Assembly (NCBI GenBank): GCA_945863875.1
Contig: CAMBBS010000019.1
Coordinates: forward strand, 1 to 64,000
Direction: 5' to 3'
DNA length: 64,000 nucleotides
Source of the DNA: Desulfopila aestuarii DSM 18488
GTDB taxonomy: Bacteria > Desulfobacterota > Desulfobulbia > Desulfobulbales > Desulfocapsaceae
Under the pieces are notes generated by a model. That model worked only from the letters and a program-made list of their open reading frames with translations, was not told where the DNA came from and ran no database searches. The first letter of the stretch is position 1. Each line of letters starts with the position of its first letter. A program made the translations under genes and the position numbers. Shown one piece after another: positions 26,751 through 41,658 of the stretch.

Positions 26751-26924
26751 ATGAAACGACGAGAGCAAACCAACTCCGCCAGACAACAAACGCCAAAGAG
26801 GAGGTTCGTAGTAGACACACTGGCCCCAAAAAATCATTTTCAAACCAAAGTCAAATAGTGTCGGCGAGGCATTGCACTGCATCACCGACTATGGGTAATT
26901 GGATAGGAAAAAAGGAATAACTCA

Positions 26925-28247
26925 ATGTCAGAAAGCACCATTAAAATCAAAGGAAAAAAGCAAAGCTCCTTTCTTGACAAGGTTAAGGAGATCATCCCGG
27001 ACGGTGGAAATCTGAATCTCTGCCTCACTTGCGGCGCCTGTGCTTCAGGCTGCCCTGCGACAGGACTGGCGGATATGGATCCACGCAAATTCCTGCGCAT
27101 GTGCGCCATGGGAATGGACAAAGAGGTGACCACGCATCCATGGGTATGGATGTGCACCATGTGCCAGCGCTGTATCTATGTCTGTCCTATGAAAATAGAT
27201 ATACCGCAGCTGGTCTTTAACGCAAGGGCCGAATGGCCCCGTGAAGAACGACCGTCGGGTATCATGAAATCGTGCGATATGGCACTCAGAAATGACTCCA
27301 ACAGCGCCATGGGCACGGCCCCCGATGATTTTATCTTCGTCGTCGAAGACGTCCTCGCCGAATATCAGGAGTCCCAACCCGAATTTAAGGATATGGCGGC
27401 CCCCATAGATAAGGAAGGCGCCTTTTTCTTTATCAATCAGAATTCCAGAGAGCCGGTCACCGAACCTGACGAAATGGTCCCGCTGTGGAAGATTCTCCAC
27501 CTCGCCGGTGTCGACTGGACGTATGGCAGCAAAGGCTGGGCCGCGGAAAACTACTGCATGTTTCTCGCGGATAATGACTGCTGGGAACGGGTCACCAGGG
27601 TATCGGCCAAGCAGGCCGACCAACTTGGCTGCAAGGTCTTTCTCAATACGGAGTGAGGACACATCACATACTCAGTCCGGGCTGGACTGAAAAAATTCAG
27701 TATTGACCATAAGTTTGAAGTTGCTTCTATTTATACCTACTACGCCAAGTGGATCAGAGAGGGCCGGCTCAAAGTCAGCTCCGCCTGGAACAAGGACCGA
27801 AAAATCAAGTTTACAATTCAGGACCCCTGCCAGATTGTCCGTAAAGGCGAAGGCGACAAAATCGCTGATGACCTGAGATTTGTCATCAAGTCAGTGGTCG
27901 GCGAAGAAAATGTCATCGAAATGACCCCCAATAAGTCAAACAATTACTGTTGTGGTGGTGGCGGCGGGTTTCTGCAATCGGGCTACACTGAAGAACGCCG
28001 CGCCTACGGTAAAGTTAAATTTGACCAGATTATGGCCACCGGTGCGGATTACTGCATCACCGGCTGTCACAACTGCCATGCCCAGGTCCACGATATCGGT
28101 CATCATTTTGGTGCTCATTACGGTACCGTTCACGTCTGGACACTGATCTGCCTGTCTCTTGGAATCCTTGGTCCCAACGAACGAACCTATCTCGGAGACG
28201 ATCTGAAAGATGTCGACGTTTTTCACCCGGAAAGTTCCCTGTACTAA
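26925..28247 (+). CDS. Selenocysteine-containing HdrC-HdrB-like Fe-S oxidoreductase (TGA read as Sec244)
   Basis: Read through an in-frame TGA at 27654-27656, this gives one 440-residue protein. The N-terminus is HdrC-like with two [4Fe-4S] motifs (C33-X2-C36-X2-C39-X3-C43 and C77-X2-C80-X2-C83-X3-C87). The rest is HdrB-like: a first CCG-type domain ending in NTE-Sec-GH, where Cys is expected, and a complete second one (C302, C333-C334, C372-X2-C375). Coding continues with no gap or frame change after the TGA, and a SECIS-like hairpin follows it. The start is ATG at 26925 with a GGA-type site (AGGAATAACTC) upstream. It heads an operon with MetF, HdrA, MvhD and MetV homologues, so it probably carries the HdrBC function, passing electrons from HdrA. 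A nonsense mutation is the alternative but is less likely. Confidence 0.85.
27672..27690 (+). promoter_or_regulatory. Putative bacterial SECIS hairpin
   Basis: TCAGTCC (27672-27678) pairs perfectly with GGACTGA (27684-27690) around a GGGCT loop. The loop starts 22 bases after the TGA at 27654-27656 and has G in its first positions, the placement and loop character known for bacterial SECIS elements that recruit SelB. Confidence 0.7.
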
Positions 28248-28312: not shown

Positions 28313-29185
28313 ATGAGTTTTCAAAAAAGATTAGCGGCAAAAGAATTCGCGGTATTGGCGGAAATGCATACCCCTAAAGGAATCAACATTTCCAGACTGG
28401 TCAATGATGCTCGCCGTCTTAAAGGAAGGGTTGATGCCGTGGTTGTGCCCGATATGGACAACGGGATCATGCGCATGAGTGCACTGGCCGGGGGAGTTTT
28501 ACTGCAGCAGCAGGGAGTCGAAACGATCATGCACATGTACTGTCGCGACCGTAACCGAATGGCTCTCCAGGGAGATGCGCTGGCCGCTCACGTTCTTGGC
28601 ATCCAGAACATCATTGTCACCGGCAGTGAAGATATGAGCGAAAGTGATCACAGTGACGCAAAAACCGTCAATGATCTCGACGAGGTTCAGCTTATCGAAG
28701 CTCTCATGACCCTGCAGACCGGGAAAGACATGAGTGGCTTTGATCTCGATGGCGCCCCCGATTTTTCCATCGGCTGCACCATAGGTTCTTTTGCCGACGA
28801 CAAAGGCAGAGATGAGGCCCTGCTCGCCACCGAGGCAAAAATTACGGCAGGGGCGAGATATGTCATCACACCACCAATTTATGATGTGCCGGCCAGCGCC
28901 GATTTCCTGTCCAGGGTGAAGGAACTGGGCGTGCCGGTCATCACTACGGTGTTTTTGCTGAAATCCCTGGCCATTGCGCAATATATTACCAACAGTGATC
29001 CCGGTGCAAATATAAGCAACGAGCTCATCCGTCGTATCCGAAAATCCTCCAACAGAGAACTGGAAGGAATCAAAATTGCCGGTGAGACTATCCAGGCACT
29101 CAAAGAGAAGACCCAGGGCGTGCTTATACAGACACTGGGCTGGGAACACAAATTACCGGAAATTCTCGATGTTGCCAAAATCTGA
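28313..29185 (+). CDS. Methylenetetrahydrofolate reductase-family protein (MetF paralogue 1)
   Basis: A 290-residue MTHFR TIM-barrel protein: the N-terminal glutamate in LAEMHTPKG, MYCRDRNRMALQGDALAAHVLGI and the flavin region NIIVTGSED. It aligns with the second MetF-like protein of this operon but differs at several sites (AEMHTPKG versus SECGPPRG). Gene position between the selenoprotein and hdrA suggests it is a subunit of the same complex or a second isoenzyme. The ribosome-binding site is GAGGAGG. Whether it acts on methylene-THF or another one-carbon carrier cannot be told from sequence. Confidence 0.8.
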   Translation: MSFQKRLAAKEFAVLAEMHTPKGINISRLVNDARRLKGRVDAVVVPDMDNGIMRMSALAGGVLLQQQGVETIMHMYCRDRNRMALQGDALAAHVLGIQNIIVTGSEDMSESDHSDAKTVNDLDEVQLIEALMTLQTGKDMSGFDLDGAPDFSIGCTIGSFADDKGRDEALLATEAKITAGARYVITPPIYDVPASADFLSRVKELGVPVITTVFLLKSLAIAQYITNSDPGANISNELIRRIRKSSNRELEGIKIAGETIQALKEKTQGVLIQTLGWEHKLPEILDVAKI

Positions 29186-32200: not shown

Positions 32201-32315
32201 TGGCTGCGGTGTCTGTGTCGCGGAATGTCCGGCCAAAGCCATTCAACTGATGCAATTTGAAGACGATCGAATTCTTGCACAGGTGGAACAACTTTTTGAA
32301 AGGATAAATGCATAA
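29271..32315 (+). CDS. HdrA-like protein with two fused FAD/Fe-S modules
   Basis: A 1014-residue cytoplasmic flavoprotein made of two HdrA/QmoB-type halves. The first has an FAD GxGxxG near 15-25 (VVGGGLGGI), HdrA cysteines in NNCDLC near residue 62, and a Fe-S segment around 112-170. The second has another FAD motif near 596-606 (VVGGGVTGM), and each half has a matching IQC(I/V)GSR segment. The C-terminus holds two full [4Fe-4S] motifs (CAACLICVRACP near 945 and CHGCGVCVAECP near 976). Normal HdrA is about 650 residues with one FAD. It overlaps mvhD by one base. Role inferred: the flavin hub, and possible bifurcation site, of the MetFV-Hdr complex. Confidence 0.88.
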   Translation: MQNSNTIETQNNKVLVVGGGLGGIRTALDLAEADKDVVLVDKDFTIGGLMTQLDRTFPTNNCDLCTIAPHLSESNRQEHIELMTMTSVENVAGEKGNFSVTLKTKPRFINLDKCTACGECFKQFPEFVRFSPGLDHRAPTCMRYPQATPQAFSIDLDKCTDVKALVDVCPAGAINPDDMPIIREIKCAAIVLSPGASLFDPTPLDYLGYATLPDVVTSLEYERILSASGPTSGKLVCPSNGRQPKKVAWIQCIGSRGLQKGAGAYCSNACCMFALKEAIVTKERFQEDIETTIFYMDMRTFGKDYELYLNRAINEYGVRFLRSRPHSILQKDGEDDLTMTYTMDDSTKQFEEKFDMVVLSTGFKTSDESRLLAAKMGVELNSDFFPVTVGLNPVVTSKPGVYVAGTFESPKDIPETMVQASAAACMAGADLPKYDKKPAEESEGVRERDISLEEPKVGVFICDCGENIGGVIDVEKLVEHAAKLPYVAIAKAEGHGCSRLSMANIRQTIEEEQLNRVVIGGCSPRTHLTKFQDLLGKAGLNKYLVEIANIRDQATWVHSGKPDEATAKAKDLIKMAVGSAVKAQPLTDQSLPMNKNVLVVGGGVTGMTTALQLAEQGFQIYLAEKSDKLGGLAKQLIKTLEGDDVQAFVGDLITKVQNHPKIQIFTRAMIVDHSGMPGMFKTGMQSGPQMFYRQLEHGVTILATGALSNRPALYLLDQSAAVRTQLETQKYIHDNPQAVKNWENVVMIQCVGSRTAENPNCSRICCQNAIKNALAILEINPEVRIFVLYRDMRTYGFQEEYYQKARSKGVIFVRYDVDSPPSVKAAGAQVDVTYFDVILGMKITVTADNLSLSTGMIADIDSTEELAMIFKLPRTNDGYFLEDHVKLRPVDMSVPGFFVAGTAHSPKLIRESVTQANAVAARAQTMLAREIINLGAASARVDSNLCAACLICVRACPFDVPFINADGYSEIDPAKCHGCGVCVAECPAKAIQLMQFEDDRILAQVEQLFERINA

Positions 32316-32737
32316 TGGAAAAATTTGAACCGGTAATTGTAGCTTTCTGCTGCCACTACTGTGCCTATACTGCTGCGGATATGGCGGGAAGCTTACGCCT
32401 GCCGTATCCGTCAAATATTAAAATCATTCGGGTACCCTGTTCCGGCAAGGTCGATGCACAGCATATCGTCACCGCCTTTGAAAAAGGCGCCGATGGTGTC
32501 TTTGTCGCAGGTTGTCTGGAAGGGGATTGTCACTTCAAGAGCGGTAACGCACGAGCTGCACGACGCGTCGAATTTGTCAAAAAGTATCTTGAAGAAATCG
32601 GCATCGAGAGCGAACGACTTGAAATGGTCAATATGTCAGCAGGCATGGGACATCGATTTGCCCAGGTGGCGACGGAAATTACGCAAAAAATTCGCAATCT
32701 CGGTCCCAGCCCTGTACGGACGACTATGGCGCAATAA
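32315..32737 (+). CDS. mvhD: MvhD-like iron-sulfur electron transfer protein
   Basis: A 140-residue MvhD/FrhD family protein with the conserved cysteines C12, C13, C16 (AFCCHYCAY), C42 (VPCSGK), C67 and C72 (AGCLEGDC), which bind a [2Fe-2S] cluster in this family. MvhD links hydrogenase or other dehydrogenases to HdrA. Its start overlaps the hdrA-like stop (TAATG), so the two proteins are probably made in equal amount. No hydrogenase gene is in the operon. Confidence 0.9.
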   Translation: MEKFEPVIVAFCCHYCAYTAADMAGSLRLPYPSNIKIIRVPCSGKVDAQHIVTAFEKGADGVFVAGCLEGDCHFKSGNARAARRVEFVKKYLEEIGIESERLEMVNMSAGMGHRFAQVATEITQKIRNLGPSPVRTTMAQ

Positions 32738-32787: not shown

Positions 32788-33456
32788 ATGATCACTGCTG
32801 AACGAAAACCTTTAGAAGAACTTATTGAATACATTAAGCCTTTCAAGCGCATTTTGCTGCTTGGCTGTAATGAATGTGTAACCGTCTGCGCCGCCGGCGG
32901 CAGAAAAGAAGTTGGACTGCTCGCGTCTGGCCTGCAGATGGCAATGCTGAAGAATGGCAGCAATATTGAAATACGCCAGCATACCCTCGAGAGACAATGC
33001 GATCCGGAATATGTCGAAGAACTCGTGCCCATGATCGATTCTGCCGATGCGGTGATGTCCATGGCCTGCGGCTGTGGTGTCCAGCAAGTAGCCATGCGCT
33101 TTAAGGACAAACCAGTTTTCCCTGCCGTCAACACCACATTCATGGGCGCGTCCGAGCGACAGGGCGTCTGGGCGGAAAGATGCCAGGGCTGCGGCAACTG
33201 TTTGCTTGGTCTTACCGGAGGGATTTGTCCTATTGCCAGATGTGCAAAACAGCTGATGAATGGGCCCTGCGGTGGCTCAACCGGCGGTAAATGTGAGATC
33301 AGTAATGATGTTGACTGCGCATGGCAACTCATCTGGGATCGGCTAAAGGCCCTTGGCCTGCAGGATAGATATTTGGATATTATCCCGGCGAAAGACTGGA
33401 GATCTGGTGGTGGCAGTGGACCGAGAAAGATTATCAGAGAGGATTTGGCAGAATGA
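32788..33456 (+). CDS. metV: MetV-like zinc/Fe-S subunit of methylene-THF reductase
   Basis: A 222-residue cysteine-rich protein of the MetV (methylene-THF reductase C-terminal) family. Cys clusters are at C27-X2-C30-X3-C34 (LLGCNECVTVC), ACGCG near 104, and CQGCGNC...CPIARC near 141-162, followed by NGPCGGSTGGKCE. In acetogens MetV is the partner of MetF. The stop overlaps the start of metF by 4 bp (ATGA), supporting a MetVF pair. The ribosome-binding site is AAGGAGAG. Confidence 0.9.
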   Translation: MITAERKPLEELIEYIKPFKRILLLGCNECVTVCAAGGRKEVGLLASGLQMAMLKNGSNIEIRQHTLERQCDPEYVEELVPMIDSADAVMSMACGCGVQQVAMRFKDKPVFPAVNTTFMGASERQGVWAERCQGCGNCLLGLTGGICPIARCAKQLMNGPCGGSTGGKCEISNDVDCAWQLIWDRLKALGLQDRYLDIIPAKDWRSGGGSGPRKIIREDLAE

Positions 33457-34376
33457 AAACTGAAAGCAGATTAGAAAAAGTTTTGGCAGCAGGACATCTG
33501 GCAGTTACCTCTGAATGCGGGCCGCCACGGGGAACAAATTTTGATGAAGTAGTCAGAAAATCAAAATATCTGGAAGGTATTGTCGATGCGGTAAACGTGA
33601 CCGACAACCAGACGGCTATGGTGCGCATGTCAAGCCTGGCAGCTTCCATTATTATCAAGCAGCAGGGCCTGAATCCTCTTTTTCAGGTTACCTGCCGCGA
33701 TCGGAACAGACTGGCGATGCAGGCGGATATCCTTGGGGCCTATGCCTTTGGCATCGATACCATGCTTTGTCTGTCCGGCGATCATACCAAATTCGGTGAT
33801 CACCCGATGGCCATGAACGTTCACGACATCGATTCCATCCAGATGATCCAGATGGTAAAAGATATGCGTGACAAAGGATTATTTCAGGGTGGTGCCGATA
33901 TCAAGGGGCCGCCAAAAATGTTTATCGGCGCAGCCGCCAATCCTTTTGCCGATCCTTTTGAGCTGCGGGTGATGCGCCTGGCAAAAAAGATCGCCGCCGG
34001 AGCTGATTTTATACAGACCCAGTGTATCTTCAACGTTGATAAATTTGAAAAATGGATGGAAGGAGTTCGGGAAAAGGGACTGCATAAGAAATGTTACATT
34101 TTAGCCGGCGTTACCCCATGTAAATCACTGGGTGCCGCCCGGTACATGGCGAATCGGGTTCCGGGCATGGATGTACCACAAGAAATCGTTGACCGGATGG
34201 CTTCAGTACCGAAAGAAAAACAAGCTGAAGAAGGCCTTACCATCTGCGTCGAGACCATCGAAAGACTGAAAAAGATTGAAGGGGTCGCCGGTTTTCATAT
34301 CATGGCCATCGAGTGGGAAGAAAAAGTCGAAGAAATTTGTGAAAGAGCAGGACTTCTTCCTCGACCTCAGGTATAA
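33453..34376 (+). CDS. metF: Methylenetetrahydrofolate reductase (MetF paralogue 2)
   Basis: Reduces methylene-THF to methyl-THF. The 307-residue TIM barrel has the catalytic-type glutamate in SECGPPRG (residues 20-27), CRDRNRLAMQ and the flavin-contact region LCLSGDH, and TQCIFNVDKFEKW. It is translationally coupled to metV and is the likelier true MetF of the two paralogues here. In the Wood-Ljungdahl pathway it makes the methyl group for the corrinoid protein. Confidence 0.92.
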   Translation: MKTESRLEKVLAAGHLAVTSECGPPRGTNFDEVVRKSKYLEGIVDAVNVTDNQTAMVRMSSLAASIIIKQQGLNPLFQVTCRDRNRLAMQADILGAYAFGIDTMLCLSGDHTKFGDHPMAMNVHDIDSIQMIQMVKDMRDKGLFQGGADIKGPPKMFIGAAANPFADPFELRVMRLAKKIAAGADFIQTQCIFNVDKFEKWMEGVREKGLHKKCYILAGVTPCKSLGAARYMANRVPGMDVPQEIVDRMASVPKEKQAEEGLTICVETIERLKKIEGVAGFHIMAIEWEEKVEEICERAGLLPRPQV

Positions 34377-37949: not shown

Positions 37950-39692
37950 ATGAATTTCAATATACTTAATGTACTAACAGGAATTGCTGTTGTCGTTTGT
38001 CTGGTCGGGTTGGTTTTTCGATTGTCCATCTGGTTTACCCAGGGCATTCGTCCCGCTTCAGCACCTTCTCTGCCGACCCTCAGTGCTGGCGGCAGAATCG
38101 TTGCTGCCCTGCAAGGGGCTTTGCAGGTACTCTTCAGTTCCAGGATTGTTCTCTTCTGCAAATCGGTTTTCGTTGATCTCGTCTTTCAGAAACGCATTTT
38201 TGATAAGAGCTTTCTCCGTTGGACAGCGCACTCCCTTATTTTCTTTGGCTTTATCCTGCTGTTTTTTATGCACGCCCTTGACTCACTAGTGTCTGCATCA
38301 TTGTTCAGTAATTATCAACCCACACTCAATCCCTTTCTTTTCCTGCGAAATCTCTTTGGTGTCATGGTCCTTGTCGGCGTGGGATTAGCCGTCTATCGAA
38401 GACTTTCAATGAAAGCGCAGCGACTCAAGACCTATGCAAGTGACTGGACGGCTCTATTCTTTGTCGGGGTCATTATTTTTTCAGGTATGCTCCTTGAAGG
38501 CGCAAAAATATCCTCCTTCACGGTCTACCAGAATATGGTCGATGAATATGCCTCTGTGGACGAAGAGGAGGCAAAGGCCCTTGAGGCATTCTGGGTTGAG
38601 GAAAACGGAGTTGTATCCCCCCATGCCGTACAACCTTTTTCCGCGGAGCTCATTGCGCGAGGCCGCGAAATAAATGGTGACAGCTGCATTGAATGCCACG
38701 CTTCCAACAGAGCTGCTTTTGCAAGTTTTACCATAGCGAAAATCAGTCGCCCTTTCTCGGCAATGGTAGGTGATGCTGCCGCAGTAACCATATTTTGGTA
38801 CCTGCATATTCTCGCCTCCTTGTCCTTTTTGGCCTGGCTGCCATTCAGTAAAATGTTTCACATCCTTGCCGCACCAGTCAGTCTCATCATCAAGAGTGTC
38901 ACCGGCGATGAGATCAACGAACCGGCAAATATTCTCAACCGGCAGATGATTGGCCTCTCCGCCTGCACCCATTGCGGAACCTGTTCAATAGAATGTTCTT
39001 CAAGCATGTTCTATGAAACATTTAAGAATGATTTCATTCTGCCATCAGAAAAGGTTCAATACCTGAAAAGATTTGCCGCAAACAAGGAGCACGACCCCGG
39101 GATCGTAAAGCGTATGCAGCAGGGCCTGTATGTCTGCACCAGCTGTGACCGCTGCACCACCGTCTGTCCTTCCGGCATCAATCTGAAAGAACTCTTTGTC
39201 AGCGCAAGATACAGTCTGCTCACTGCCGGAACGCCGGAAACCACCATGCTCAGTCACTTCTCTTTTCCCCTGGCGCTGGCACAAAACTTTGTCGACGACC
39301 ATCTCAAAGCCCTGAAAAAGGTTACTGAGCTCTTTAAAAAGAATTTTCAGCATTTGTCGGATCTCACGTCCCCAATAACTCTTGGCAGGCCATCACCTTT
39401 TGGCAATAACAGCTATAAAGGCTGTTTCTCCTGCCAACGCTGCACCAATATCTGCCCGGTGGTCAGAAGCTACGACAATCCGGTGGAAGCACTTGGCCTG
39501 CTGCCCCATCAGATCATGTTCAGTTTAGGTATCGGTAATGTGGAACTGGCCATGGGTTCCCAGATGATATGGAGCTGCTCCACCTGTTACCTCTGCCAGG
39601 AGCACTGCCCTAATCAGGTGGAACTTTGTGATATTTTCTATAACCTAAAGAATAGTGCCATTAACAAAATCGAGGCAGGAGCGAGTTCATGA
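37950..39692 (+). CDS. Membrane cytochrome b/c and tandem HdrC-like Fe-S protein
   Basis: A 580-residue membrane protein joining an NarI/DsrM-like cytochrome b part to cytoplasmic Fe-S modules. Helices lie at about 8-25, 92-112, 130-150, 165-183 and 280-298. Between the last two, an external segment carries one c-type haem site CIECH (246-250). After the last helix come four cysteine motifs: C339-349, C396-406, C492-502 and C543-553, equal to two HdrC units. The stop overlaps the next gene (ATGA), which encodes an HdrB-like protein. The pair should pass electrons between the quinone or periplasmic cytochrome pool and a cytoplasmic acceptor. It resembles DsrMK, TmcBC and HdrDE but has a distinct arrangement. 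Confidence 0.8.
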   Translation: MNFNILNVLTGIAVVVCLVGLVFRLSIWFTQGIRPASAPSLPTLSAGGRIVAALQGALQVLFSSRIVLFCKSVFVDLVFQKRIFDKSFLRWTAHSLIFFGFILLFFMHALDSLVSASLFSNYQPTLNPFLFLRNLFGVMVLVGVGLAVYRRLSMKAQRLKTYASDWTALFFVGVIIFSGMLLEGAKISSFTVYQNMVDEYASVDEEEAKALEAFWVEENGVVSPHAVQPFSAELIARGREINGDSCIECHASNRAAFASFTIAKISRPFSAMVGDAAAVTIFWYLHILASLSFLAWLPFSKMFHILAAPVSLIIKSVTGDEINEPANILNRQMIGLSACTHCGTCSIECSSSMFYETFKNDFILPSEKVQYLKRFAANKEHDPGIVKRMQQGLYVCTSCDRCTTVCPSGINLKELFVSARYSLLTAGTPETTMLSHFSFPLALAQNFVDDHLKALKKVTELFKKNFQHLSDLTSPITLGRPSPFGNNSYKGCFSCQRCTNICPVVRSYDNPVEALGLLPHQIMFSLGIGNVELAMGSQMIWSCSTCYLCQEHCPNQVELCDIFYNLKNSAINKIEAGASS

Positions 39693-40621
39693 AATACGCA
39701 TTTTTCCAGGGATGCAACATCCCCATACGTATCCAGCAATACGCAACGTCCACCGAAGCGGTATTGAACAAATTCGGTATCGAACTCCAAGTTGTTCCCG
39801 ACTTCAACTGCTGCGGCTATCCGGCACGCAACGTCGACGAGAAGGCCTATCTTCTGCCATCTGTTCGCAACATGGCCATTGCCGAAAAAATGAATCTGGA
39901 TATCCTGGTTATCTGTAACTGCTGTTTTGCCAGTCTGCAGAAGGCAAAAAATGCTCTGACCAAGGACAGTCCGTTAAAAGATGAACTGAACGGCTATCTT
40001 GCCAAGGAAGGATTGCAGTATAATGGCACCGCACAGATCAAACATTACCTGACCGTTCTCTATGAGGAGGTCGGAACGGAGAATATTAAAAGCCAACTTG
40101 TCAATCAATTCAATGCGCTGAACATCTCGGTAATCCATGGCTGCCATATTTTAAGACCAAGAGAAATCACCACCTTTGACGACTCCTTTGTGCCGAAGAT
40201 TACCGAAGAACTTCTTCAGGTTACCGGCGTAACGAGCCTTGACTGGCGAGGCAAGCTCGAATGCTGCGGCGCGGCACTCGCAGGAATCAACCCTGAGCTC
40301 TCCGAAAAACTGTTGCATGAAAAGATCACCGGCGCCCAGACAGCCGGGGCCGAATTTATAACCCCTATCTGCTCATACTGTCATTTGCAATTTGACACGG
40401 CTCAGAAAAACATGGCGGACGTCAACCCCTCGGCAAAGCTTCTGCCGGTACTTCTCTATCCGCAACTGCTCGGTCTGTGCCTTGGCATCGACGAACAGAA
40501 ACTGGGAGTCAGACAAAACAGTACCATTAATGCTGCAGATATAGCGCGTATTCACTCCCTTCTTGGGCCTCCGGTCGCAGACAAGAAAAAGAAGAAAAGA
40601 AAATCAGCGGCAGCTGCCTGA
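39689..40621 (+). CDS. HdrB-like CCG-domain protein
   Basis: A 310-residue protein with two complete CCG domains of the heterodisulfide reductase HdrB type: GCN near residue 8, NCCGYP and CNCC in the first, and HGCH, ECCGAALAG and CSYC in the second. These motifs bind the unusual [4Fe-4S] sites that reduce disulfides. A Lys-rich tail ends the protein. It overlaps the upstream membrane protein gene by four bases, so the two likely form one complex. The disulfide substrate is unknown; methanogen CoM-CoB is not expected here. Confidence 0.88.
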   Translation: MKYAFFQGCNIPIRIQQYATSTEAVLNKFGIELQVVPDFNCCGYPARNVDEKAYLLPSVRNMAIAEKMNLDILVICNCCFASLQKAKNALTKDSPLKDELNGYLAKEGLQYNGTAQIKHYLTVLYEEVGTENIKSQLVNQFNALNISVIHGCHILRPREITTFDDSFVPKITEELLQVTGVTSLDWRGKLECCGAALAGINPELSEKLLHEKITGAQTAGAEFITPICSYCHLQFDTAQKNMADVNPSAKLLPVLLYPQLLGLCLGIDEQKLGVRQNSTINAADIARIHSLLGPPVADKKKKKRKSAAAA

Positions 40622-40740
40622 CGCGTTGACCGTGCCTGCGCCAAAAAAGACCCTCGCCACAAACAACACCCGATGCGGCGCCCTGTAGCGAAGACTATAT
40701 AACGCTGCCCCTGCAGGGTACCGGTGTTTTGACGAAATTA

Positions 40741-40790
40741 AAACCATCTCTCCATCCTGAGCGGAAGAGATGGTTTTTTTCTTTTTTTTT
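40741..40790 (+). terminator. Intrinsic terminator after the HdrB-like gene
   Basis: An 11-bp stem (40741-40751 with 40766-40776) with a 14-base loop, followed by a long T-rich tract. It separates the Hdr-like operon from cooC. Confidence 0.88.
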
Positions 40791-40896
40791 CACTGAAAAT
40801 GTTTACTATGCACATGAAGTTAAAAATTATGCCAAGATATGGCAAAATTCGAATGAATCTAATCATTTGCTTTGTATCTTTTTTTTGGAGACTTGT

Positions 40897-41658
40897 ATGA
40901 GTAAAGTTATAGCTTTTGCCGGAAAGGGCGGTGTTGGTAAAACTACCGTGGCATCACTGGTAATCCGTTACATGAGTGCATCAGGAAAATCTCCGGTGCT
41001 TGCGGTCGATGCCGATCCGAACAGCAACCTGGGAGAAACCATCGGCCTGGAAGTTCCGAAAACTATTGGTGACATTCGTGAAACCTACATGAAAGATCCG
41101 CAGGGCATCCCTTCCGGGATGGATAAAATAAATTACCTCCAACTTCTTGTCGAACAGGCACTGATCGAAAGGCCAACCTTCGATCTTCTGGTTATGGGCA
41201 GGCAGGAAGGCCAGGGCTGCTATTGCATGGTAAATAACATCCTGAATAATTTCACAGACAAACTCAGCGCTCACTATAAATATATGATCGTTGACAACGA
41301 AGCTGGGATGGAACACCTGAGCCGACGTACCAGCGGCCGGGTGGATATGCTCTATCTGGTCACCGATTACTCCCTGCGTGGCTTACGGGCTGTTCGACGC
41401 ATCCACACCATGCTCAAGGGGTTGAAGCTCGATGTGAAAAACCTGGCTATTGTCGTCACCCGAGGCCCGGAAAAGCTCAGCGACGCCTTTCTTGCAGAAG
41501 TCGCAGAAATCGGCCTGCCCATAGCCGGTGTTATCCCCAACGACGCTGCCCTGCTTGAATTCGATATGGAGCGCCGCTCCCTCCTCGAATTGCCCGATGA
41601 TTCTCTTTCTGTACTCGCCGTTAAAAAACTGATGGACGAACAATGTCCCGTTTTGTAA
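40897..41658 (+). CDS. cooC: CooC-like nickel-insertion ATPase for CO dehydrogenase
   Basis: A 254-residue P-loop ATPase of the MinD/CooC group with FAGKGGVGKTT at 6-16. The CYC pair at C108 and C110 (GQGCYCMVNN) matches the metal-binding CxC of CooC proteins, which separates it from ordinary MinD. It matures the Ni-Fe-S cluster of CO dehydrogenase or acetyl-CoA synthase. The frame is open upstream to 40729, but that includes a terminator; the ATG at 40897 has GGAG at good spacing. No CODH subunit gene is in the window. It is flanked by terminators on both sides, so it is probably a single-gene unit. Confidence 0.88.
   Translation: MSKVIAFAGKGGVGKTTVASLVIRYMSASGKSPVLAVDADPNSNLGETIGLEVPKTIGDIRETYMKDPQGIPSGMDKINYLQLLVEQALIERPTFDLLVMGRQEGQGCYCMVNNILNNFTDKLSAHYKYMIVDNEAGMEHLSRRTSGRVDMLYLVTDYSLRGLRAVRRIHTMLKGLKLDVKNLAIVVTRGPEKLSDAFLAEVAEIGLPIAGVIPNDAALLEFDMERRSLLELPDDSLSVLAVKKLMDEQCPVL

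Follow-up and report, generated by a model that had tools for sequence, protein, structure and literature searches.

Selenocysteine (Sec)-containing Fe-S oxidoreductases, which an earlier note on the DNA analysed here had given as known from Deltaproteobacteria, are indeed already published. In the excerpted text of a 2026 review, the 'Fe-S oxidoreductase-like protein, PTHR43551, UGH' is a high-confidence predicted selenoprotein, and such Sec-containing Fe-S oxidoreductases are called largely uncharacterised (PMC13188914). Five Sec-containing GlpC proteins had been counted by 2006, and the operon order printed in the excerpt from that paper is glpC-hdrA-frhD-frhG-frhA (PMC1794560). Similarly, hdrD4 of Desulfobacterium autotrophicum appears in an excerpted list of Sec proteins as a soluble protein with domains homologous to HdrC and HdrB (PMC2702500). 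A MetFV-HdrABC-MvhD complex is described from Moorella thermoacetica, with one acceptor still entered as '?' in the relevant table of the review (PMC5861303), and metF-HdrABC is noted, in the passage available, in the sulfate-reducing partners of methanotrophic archaea (PMC10553843). For the structures, the quoted section of PMC13083937 states that in EtfD C581 ligates a linear [3Fe-4S] cluster and His583 ligates the noncubane cluster; HdrB instead uses bridging Cys81 and Cys234.

Here we analyse a window of 64,000 nucleotides (the whole stretch of DNA examined) from Desulfopila aestuarii DSM 18488, in which the earlier note, made from the letters alone, had proposed a Sec codon in a fused HdrC-HdrB-like protein of a methylene-THF reductase operon. 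We have named the gene hcb; its coordinates, and those of the features around it, are collected in Table 1.

Table 1. Features of the hcb locus (positions in the window)
Feature	Position	Strand	Evidence
RBS-like AAAAGGA, 8 bases 5' of ATG	26910..26916	+	sequence, by eye
hcb (name coined here), HdrC-like dicluster ferredoxin + HdrB-like domain, 440 aa, predicted Sec244	26925..28247	+	translation, Pfam, homologues, codon divergence
UGA codon 244, predicted to be read as selenocysteine	27654..27656	+	sequence, homologue comparison
Putative SECIS-type hairpin, 7 pairs + closing G-U, G-rich loop GGGCU, 15 nt after UGA	27672..27690	+	folding, covariation, window control
MetF paralogue 1	28313..29185	+	PF02219
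HdrA-like protein, 1014 aa	29271..32315	+	NF040770 839 bits, below cut-off 1100
MvhD/FlpD	32315..32737	+	PF02662
MetV (methylene-THF reductase C terminal)	32788..33456	+	PF12225
MetF paralogue 2	33453..34376	+	PF02219

Results

One reading frame with a conserved UGA codon

The two apparent genes at this locus are, as had been claimed, one frame of 440 codons split by a single TGA at codon 244, and the read-through translation has the residues NTE-U-GH around that codon. Between the TGA and the final stop lie 196 codons, which include the complete second CCG motif that the earlier note had described (C302, C342-C343, C381 and C384). Its expectation that an automatic gene finder would make two calls here also stands, but the second would not start at 27657: because there is no in-frame ATG, GTG or TTG after the TGA until 27894, calls of 243 aa and 117 aa are likelier.

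We searched the genome_contigs collection for relatives and confirmed 395; the 80 best were kept for analysis (73-95% identity). Their record titles are mostly of Desulfobulbaceae/Desulfocapsaceae type and Desulfobacterales type, with several given just as 'Deltaproteobacteria' or 'Proteobacteria'. Cultured carriers of the gene include Desulforhopalus singaporensis, Desulfopila aestuarii and Desulfofustis glycolicus (L024, L025 and L048). TGA stands at codon 244 in all 80 kept loci, which excludes a sequencing error. A survey of 395 genomes sampled from the phylum found a match (E 1e-20 or better) in 191; codon 244 was TGA in 26 and a Cys codon in 4 of 30 loci fetched from this survey, a set that includes the window itself (L132) and three repeats of the 80 (L133, L134 and L135, which equal L083, L072 and L079). 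Further Cys codons at this place were read in L162, L165, L167, L168 (a repeat of L150), L169, L119, L195 and L198, and in a decayed copy in L163, and a paralogue on contig C13 of the same genome (L164) has TGA. Among the homologues whose codon was read, a minority of the survey matches, no residue other than Sec or Cys was found at position 244. The earlier note had allowed both for a Cys codon appearing at 27654 on resequencing and for homologues with neither residue there; the conserved TGA and the codons read speak for its proposal on both counts. The Cys forms are single open frames. A quickly computed tree, in which DsrK and the C13 paralogue have very long branches, was used solely to count changes between Sec and Cys, of which it has at least four. 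A candidate UAG Sec codon in L159 (annotated '1 TAG') was rejected: the TAG is codon 431, and codon 244 is TGT.

The pattern of substitution is also continuous across the TGA. Compared with ten relatives, divergence at codon positions 1, 2 and 3 is 9.5, 5.6 and 48.6% before the TGA, 8.7, 6.5 and 44.9% from the TGA to the next in-frame start, and 8.7, 6.6 and 49.4% beyond that start. By this measure, the start-less piece after the TGA is conserved no less strictly than the rest, with purifying selection running through the UGA. As a control, we took all TGA codons in the window that separate two open stretches, each longer than 100 codons. There are 11, and the TGA at 27654 is the only one among them with a stem of at least six pairs after it at SECIS distance.

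A SECIS-type hairpin supported by comparison

The hairpin with a G-rich loop that had been noticed 15 bases after the TGA was recovered. When a 57-nt piece of the window was folded alone, the z score was -1.13 and the minimum-energy fold differed, with the hairpin present in the centroid; for a 48-nt stretch it is the hairpin that has the lowest energy. Folding of the single 57-nt sequence is thus unremarkable, and the case for the predicted element is made by comparison. The 107 Sec matches (96 distinct 48-nt stretches) mostly have a stem of 7-8 pairs, 15-16 nt after the UGA. Among the 96 distinct Sec sequences 745/768 stem cells are paired, as against 32/72 in nine distinct Cys sequences, a count that includes a remote 30% paralogue in L071; one Cys form (L169) retains pairing in 6/8 stem cells. 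Paired changes occur at the fourth pair (GC to AT, 90 and 5) and at the innermost pair (GC or GT to TA or AT; 65, 6, 19 and 5), and the outermost pair is broken (G-A) in 19/96 Sec sequences. The observed pairing of 0.970 compares with a mean of 0.899 (maximum 0.921 in 1000 shuffles) when the 3' letters were redealt, and with 0.12-0.78 when the partners were slid by 1-6 bases. The hairpin is kept even in the 36%-identical Sec paralogue L164. On these alignments, the putative element has the position of a bacterial SECIS and is largely absent from Cys homologues. Taken together, the comparisons strongly support the view that the locus encodes a selenoprotein, in which UGA244 would be decoded as Sec by SelB with this hairpin.

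Selenocysteine machinery and a tRNA with a cysteine anticodon

The earlier note had named four sel genes, and had counted a genome without any as evidence against Sec. Three of them are here: selA, selB and two selD genes score above curated cut-offs, with the selA and selB frames open. The fourth, canonical selC (UCA tRNA-Sec), was not found in this assembly of 93 contigs, although it was seen in relatives. The sole Rfam tRNA-Sec match above cut-off in the assembly has the anticodon GCA, and a 17-base anticodon-arm pattern with up to three mismatches gave 16 matches in this genome (control 6), none of them recognised as a UCA gene. In the nearest relative (L107) selC follows glyQ; here other sequence stands at that place, and no tRNA was found on the 17.9-kb contig in question (C64, L224). 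UCA tRNA-Sec is present in 15/17 related genomes, in 10/11 other genomes of the genus and in 25/30 other carriers of the Sec gene that were searched (30 of the 80 kept loci). As selA is kept, we think that selC probably lies in an assembly gap. Each of the two selD genes (L018 on C30 and L019 on C4) itself carries an in-frame TGA close to the N terminus.

The GCA tRNA-Sec-like gene of this genome (G000) lies on contig C30 (L163:7535-7628, minus strand; discriminator U by eye), 65 nt after the matched end of the decayed Cys form of the HdrC-HdrB fusion (HCB; L163:7694-8916, minus strand), and the two face a selD(Sec)-yedF pair. Six such genes were present in the genomes searched (G000, G005, G006, G413, G423 and G427; the anticodon in G413, a D. 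aestuarii genome, was set by alignment, ARAGORN making no call there), and each of them has an HCB or MvhD neighbour no more than 1 kb away. The neighbour in G000, G005, G413 and G423 is a Cys-codon HCB gene on the same strand whose BLAST match ends 65-95 nt upstream of the tRNA, decayed in G000 and an open frame in the other three. None of 40 canonical tRNA-Sec loci, at least five of them repeats from overlapping genome sets, has an HCB or MvhD neighbour within about 1.5 kb. A tRNA model built from the six sequences (R1) was run on 395 genomes, and many of its weaker matches read as UCA tRNA-Sec; among its 30 best-match loci an Hdr-type neighbour occurs in two, one being this genome, and selD or yedF is near in five. 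ARAGORN reads eight of these 30 as GCA, with the linkage in 2/8. Because just 2/30 best-match loci show an Hdr-type neighbour, the Hdr linkage of the GCA tRNA is bound to a lineage. The linkage may go back to a single event, since the three complete Cys genes next to the tRNA group as a single clade in a quick tree.

tRNAs of the tRNA-ReC type are aminoacylated with Cys and are able to recode UGA; recoding of UGA as Cys by such a tRNA together with SelB was reportedly described by Vargas-Rodriguez in 2018. The converse candidate, insertion of Sec at the Cys codon of the Cys paralogues beside tRNA-ReC, was rejected, there being by eye no SECIS-type hairpin after TGC/TGT in the stretches inspected. 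Second tRNA-Sec-like genes with a UCA anticodon, unlike canonical selC, were observed in L197, L199 and L120, and in L231 one second UCA tRNA-Sec-like gene follows HCB and MvhD genes.

Domains, predicted fold and the position of Sec244

The description of the protein as an HdrC-HdrB-like fusion was borne out by Pfam and NCBIfam, with a dicluster ferredoxin domain at residues 30-91 (PF13183) and a CCG domain at residues 297-388 (PF02754), and by the predicted fold. An AlphaFold2 model made with 32 sequences (pLDDT 86.6, pTM 0.86) was compared with known structures using Foldseek and VIA-align. EtfD came top (Z 25.2, rmsd 3.8, 378 residues), followed by HdrB chains (Z 19.9-20.6, 243-254 residues), along with a hypothetical H. 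pylori protein (Z 20.3) and LutA (Z 19.4). In the model, residue 244 stands directly before a helix, as does C381, which opens the CxxC of the second CCG motif. A HMMER profile alignment places E-C/U-G-H onto T580-C581-P582-H583 of EtfD (25.5 bits). In the family alignment, all 32 rows share E243, H246, the eight ferredoxin Cys and the five of the second CCG motif, and position 244 is likewise invariant.

HdrB requires two complete CCG motifs, and here there is one. Compared with the two-CCG protein L205 of the same genome, the ligand places of the first motif are occupied by S174, A207, E208, U244 and I247; DsrK of this genome has S, G, G, C and M at these places, with ECGH at the Sec place. 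When the family was aligned with the window's own HdrB by hhalign, the second CCG domain alone was aligned. Two further residues, C117 (27273-27275) and C211 (27555-27557), are Cys in 31/32 rows and lie outside the known cluster motifs; the model of a Sec at the noncubane cluster does not explain their conservation.

The earlier note had inferred that Sec244 replaces a ligand or catalytic Cys. It is indeed equivalent to a ligand in EtfD, Cys581, but the part of the claim that would make it an ordinary ligand has become less likely: because the other four first-CCG places are S174, A207, E208 and I247, a catalytic or second-sphere selenolate beside the remaining noncubane cluster is the more likely role. 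On the same structural comparison, the Sec residue probably has no cluster of its own and lies at the noncubane one.

Genomic context

The proposed methylene-THF reductase operon was confirmed by Pfam and NCBIfam, with MetF, HdrA, MvhD, MetV and a second MetF downstream of hcb. We surveyed the neighbours in the 80 loci, which are of 3-13 kb and in some cases cut by contig ends. MetF/MetV is nearby in 52/80, in several gene orders, and in 28/29 loci at 82-95% identity, the contig of the remaining one ending 1.5 kb on. No MetF/MetV was found in 28/80 loci, so the partner is not always MetFV, and no other gene of the window's region in 21/80. In the same genome, a Cys paralogue (62% identical) follows glpK, glpA and glpB, and the second Sec paralogue (L164, C13:68000-82000; 36% identical) adjoins frames that by eye resemble HdrA and NiFe hydrogenase subunits. 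One genome thus has this module in both a Sec and a Cys version, set next to genes for different dehydrogenases.

Elsewhere in the window, after other genes, two adjacent genes at 37950-40621 encode a QmoC/HdrF-like membrane protein, which has two dicluster ferredoxin parts, and an HdrB-like protein with two CCG motifs; a MinD/CooC-like ATPase follows (37950-41658 for all three).

Discussion

In our judgement it is quite probable that hcb encodes a UGA-decoded selenoprotein that is the counterpart of HdrBC in a MetFV-HdrA-MvhD-type complex, with Sec244 at a noncubane cluster. From its Cys motifs, the protein would bear two [4Fe-4S] clusters in its HdrC-like part and, given also the HdrB/EtfD-like fold, one noncubane [4Fe-4S] cluster in its sole complete CCG motif. 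Sec244 would take the place of EtfD Cys581, two residues before the invariant H246, the presumed equivalent of EtfD His583, and with no Cys at the other first-CCG ligand places it could be free as a selenolate at the noncubane cluster. Judging from the operon, a soluble MetFV-HdrA-MvhD-type complex, in which the hcb protein probably replaces HdrBC, would couple methylene-THF/methyl-THF conversion to HdrA flavin chemistry; thiol/disulfide exchange of Sec244 with a protein partner such as DsrC is a guess at a further step.

Several other readings of the locus have to be weighed against this. UGA is normally a stop, and many complexes contain HdrC and HdrB as distinct polypeptides, so that a 243-residue HdrC-like protein with a true stop might be followed by a separate HdrB-like fragment. 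We regard this as very improbable: the 79 codons after the UGA are under equal selection yet contain no in-frame ATG, GTG or TTG (there is a CTG at 27687), the TGA recurs in every kept locus, and the Cys forms are undivided. A decayed gene or a sequencing error, for which one might point to the decayed Cys paralogue of this very genome with its two TAG codons and a frame break, has a negligible chance, as 80/80 kept relatives share both the TGA and the open frame. It is harder to dismiss the idea that UGA is read as Cys, always or under selenium limitation, by SelB with tRNA-ReC (GCA). Such a tRNA is present on C30, canonical selC was not found in the assembly, and some homologues have Cys at 244. 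However, selA is intact, and we know of no use for selA without tRNA-Sec; furthermore, the assembly is in 93 contigs, the UCA tRNA-Sec occurs in all but one of the 11 other genomes of the genus, and the GCA type was found in just 3/30 other carriers searched. We therefore hold decoding as Cys to be distinctly unlikely.

If Sec is accepted, the questions are where it acts and with what. It might pair as a selenenylsulfide with Cys211 (or Cys117), away from the cluster, and this would suit the near-invariance of both residues (31/32 aligned rows); however, neither residue is present in the Sec paralogue L164, where the UGA is retained, and the aligned stretch of DsrK has no Cys near the place of C211, and we consider such a pair unlikely. 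A greater, if still doubtful, possibility is a selenoprotein that is no fixed subunit of MetFV-HdrA-MvhD, being instead a free-standing carrier or the partner of other dehydrogenases. The 21 of 80 loci without another gene of the window's region would fit this, as would the Cys paralogue behind glpK-glpA-glpB and the second Sec paralogue beside frames that look, by eye, HdrA-like and hydrogenase-like; against it stands the adjacency to MetF/MetV in 52/80 loci, kept through several gene orders. A selenoprotein acting as the HdrBC counterpart of a MetFV-HdrA-MvhD-type complex thus remains our preferred explanation.

A bolder extension can be made of these findings. As a hypothesis, a Cys isoenzyme and a recoding tRNA would together form a selenium-starvation cassette. 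In its full form, UGH would be a new active site, with a selenolate by a His-ligated noncubane [4Fe-4S] cluster as the redox exit of MetFV-HdrA-MvhD; the UGA would possibly be decoded as Cys by SelB and tRNA-ReC when selenium is short, and the placing of that tRNA beside the Cys isoform would be the starvation cassette. As a whole this is speculative, and we think it improbable.

More immediately, the mapping of UGH onto EtfD gives a concrete and testable role, with Sec beside a residue that ligates the noncubane cluster. The MetF/MetV genes that recur near hcb link the protein to the acetyl-CoA pathway of sulfate reducers, specifically to its methyl branch. Gene callers that stop at UGA would split the hcb gene wherever it is present.

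Comparison with known systems

In the open-licence literature searched, as far as the available text of the papers goes, we found no EtfD-based or other structural placement of the Sec of this family, no MetF linkage of a Sec-containing HdrCB protein and no biochemistry of this protein; a search of the same literature for DsrK with 'noncubane' also returned no paper. The best NCBIfam matches of the window's protein are DsrK, TmcB and HmcF, at 101.6, 160.3 and 155.5 bits against cut-offs of 400, 735 and 750; GlpC (31.7 against 279.9 bits) and HdrB (TIGR03288, 24.7 against 345.15 bits) are likewise below theirs. With EtfD (9ojn) and HdrB (5odc) it shares the fold and the five Cys of the second CCG motif, and with EtfD also C/U-x-H at the first. 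Unlike these proteins, it has no membrane part, has lost the first-CCG ligands except at 244, and has Sec for Cys.

Compared with the Moorella MetFV-HdrABC-MvhD system, as far as it is set out in the source text, MetF, MetV, HdrA and MvhD are likewise encoded in one cluster, but here one fused Sec protein with one complete CCG motif stands for HdrB and HdrC, and there is a second MetF. HdrD4 of D. autotrophicum, on its excerpted description, resembles the hcb protein in having HdrC and HdrB domains in one soluble Sec protein, and the two may belong to the same subfamily.

Finally, the UGH motif of the Sec Fe-S oxidoreductase-like family (PTHR43551) is present in the window's protein. Sec-containing GlpC, on the excerpted account (PMC1794560), shares with it the U-G-H motif, an occurrence in Deltaproteobacteria and neighbours of HdrA and FrhD/MvhD type; the Fer4 and CCG domains and the SECIS-type element are described here for the window's protein. 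However, the operon order given for Sec GlpC is unlike the MetF/MetV operon, and the window's protein forms a separate subfamily; a cluster resembling the GlpC operon, which includes the 36%-identical Sec paralogue, is found on contig C13 of this genome. The presence of Sec is therefore no novelty in this setting; what this locus provides is a new member of the UGH Fe-S oxidoreductase/GlpC proteins with a clear operon context.
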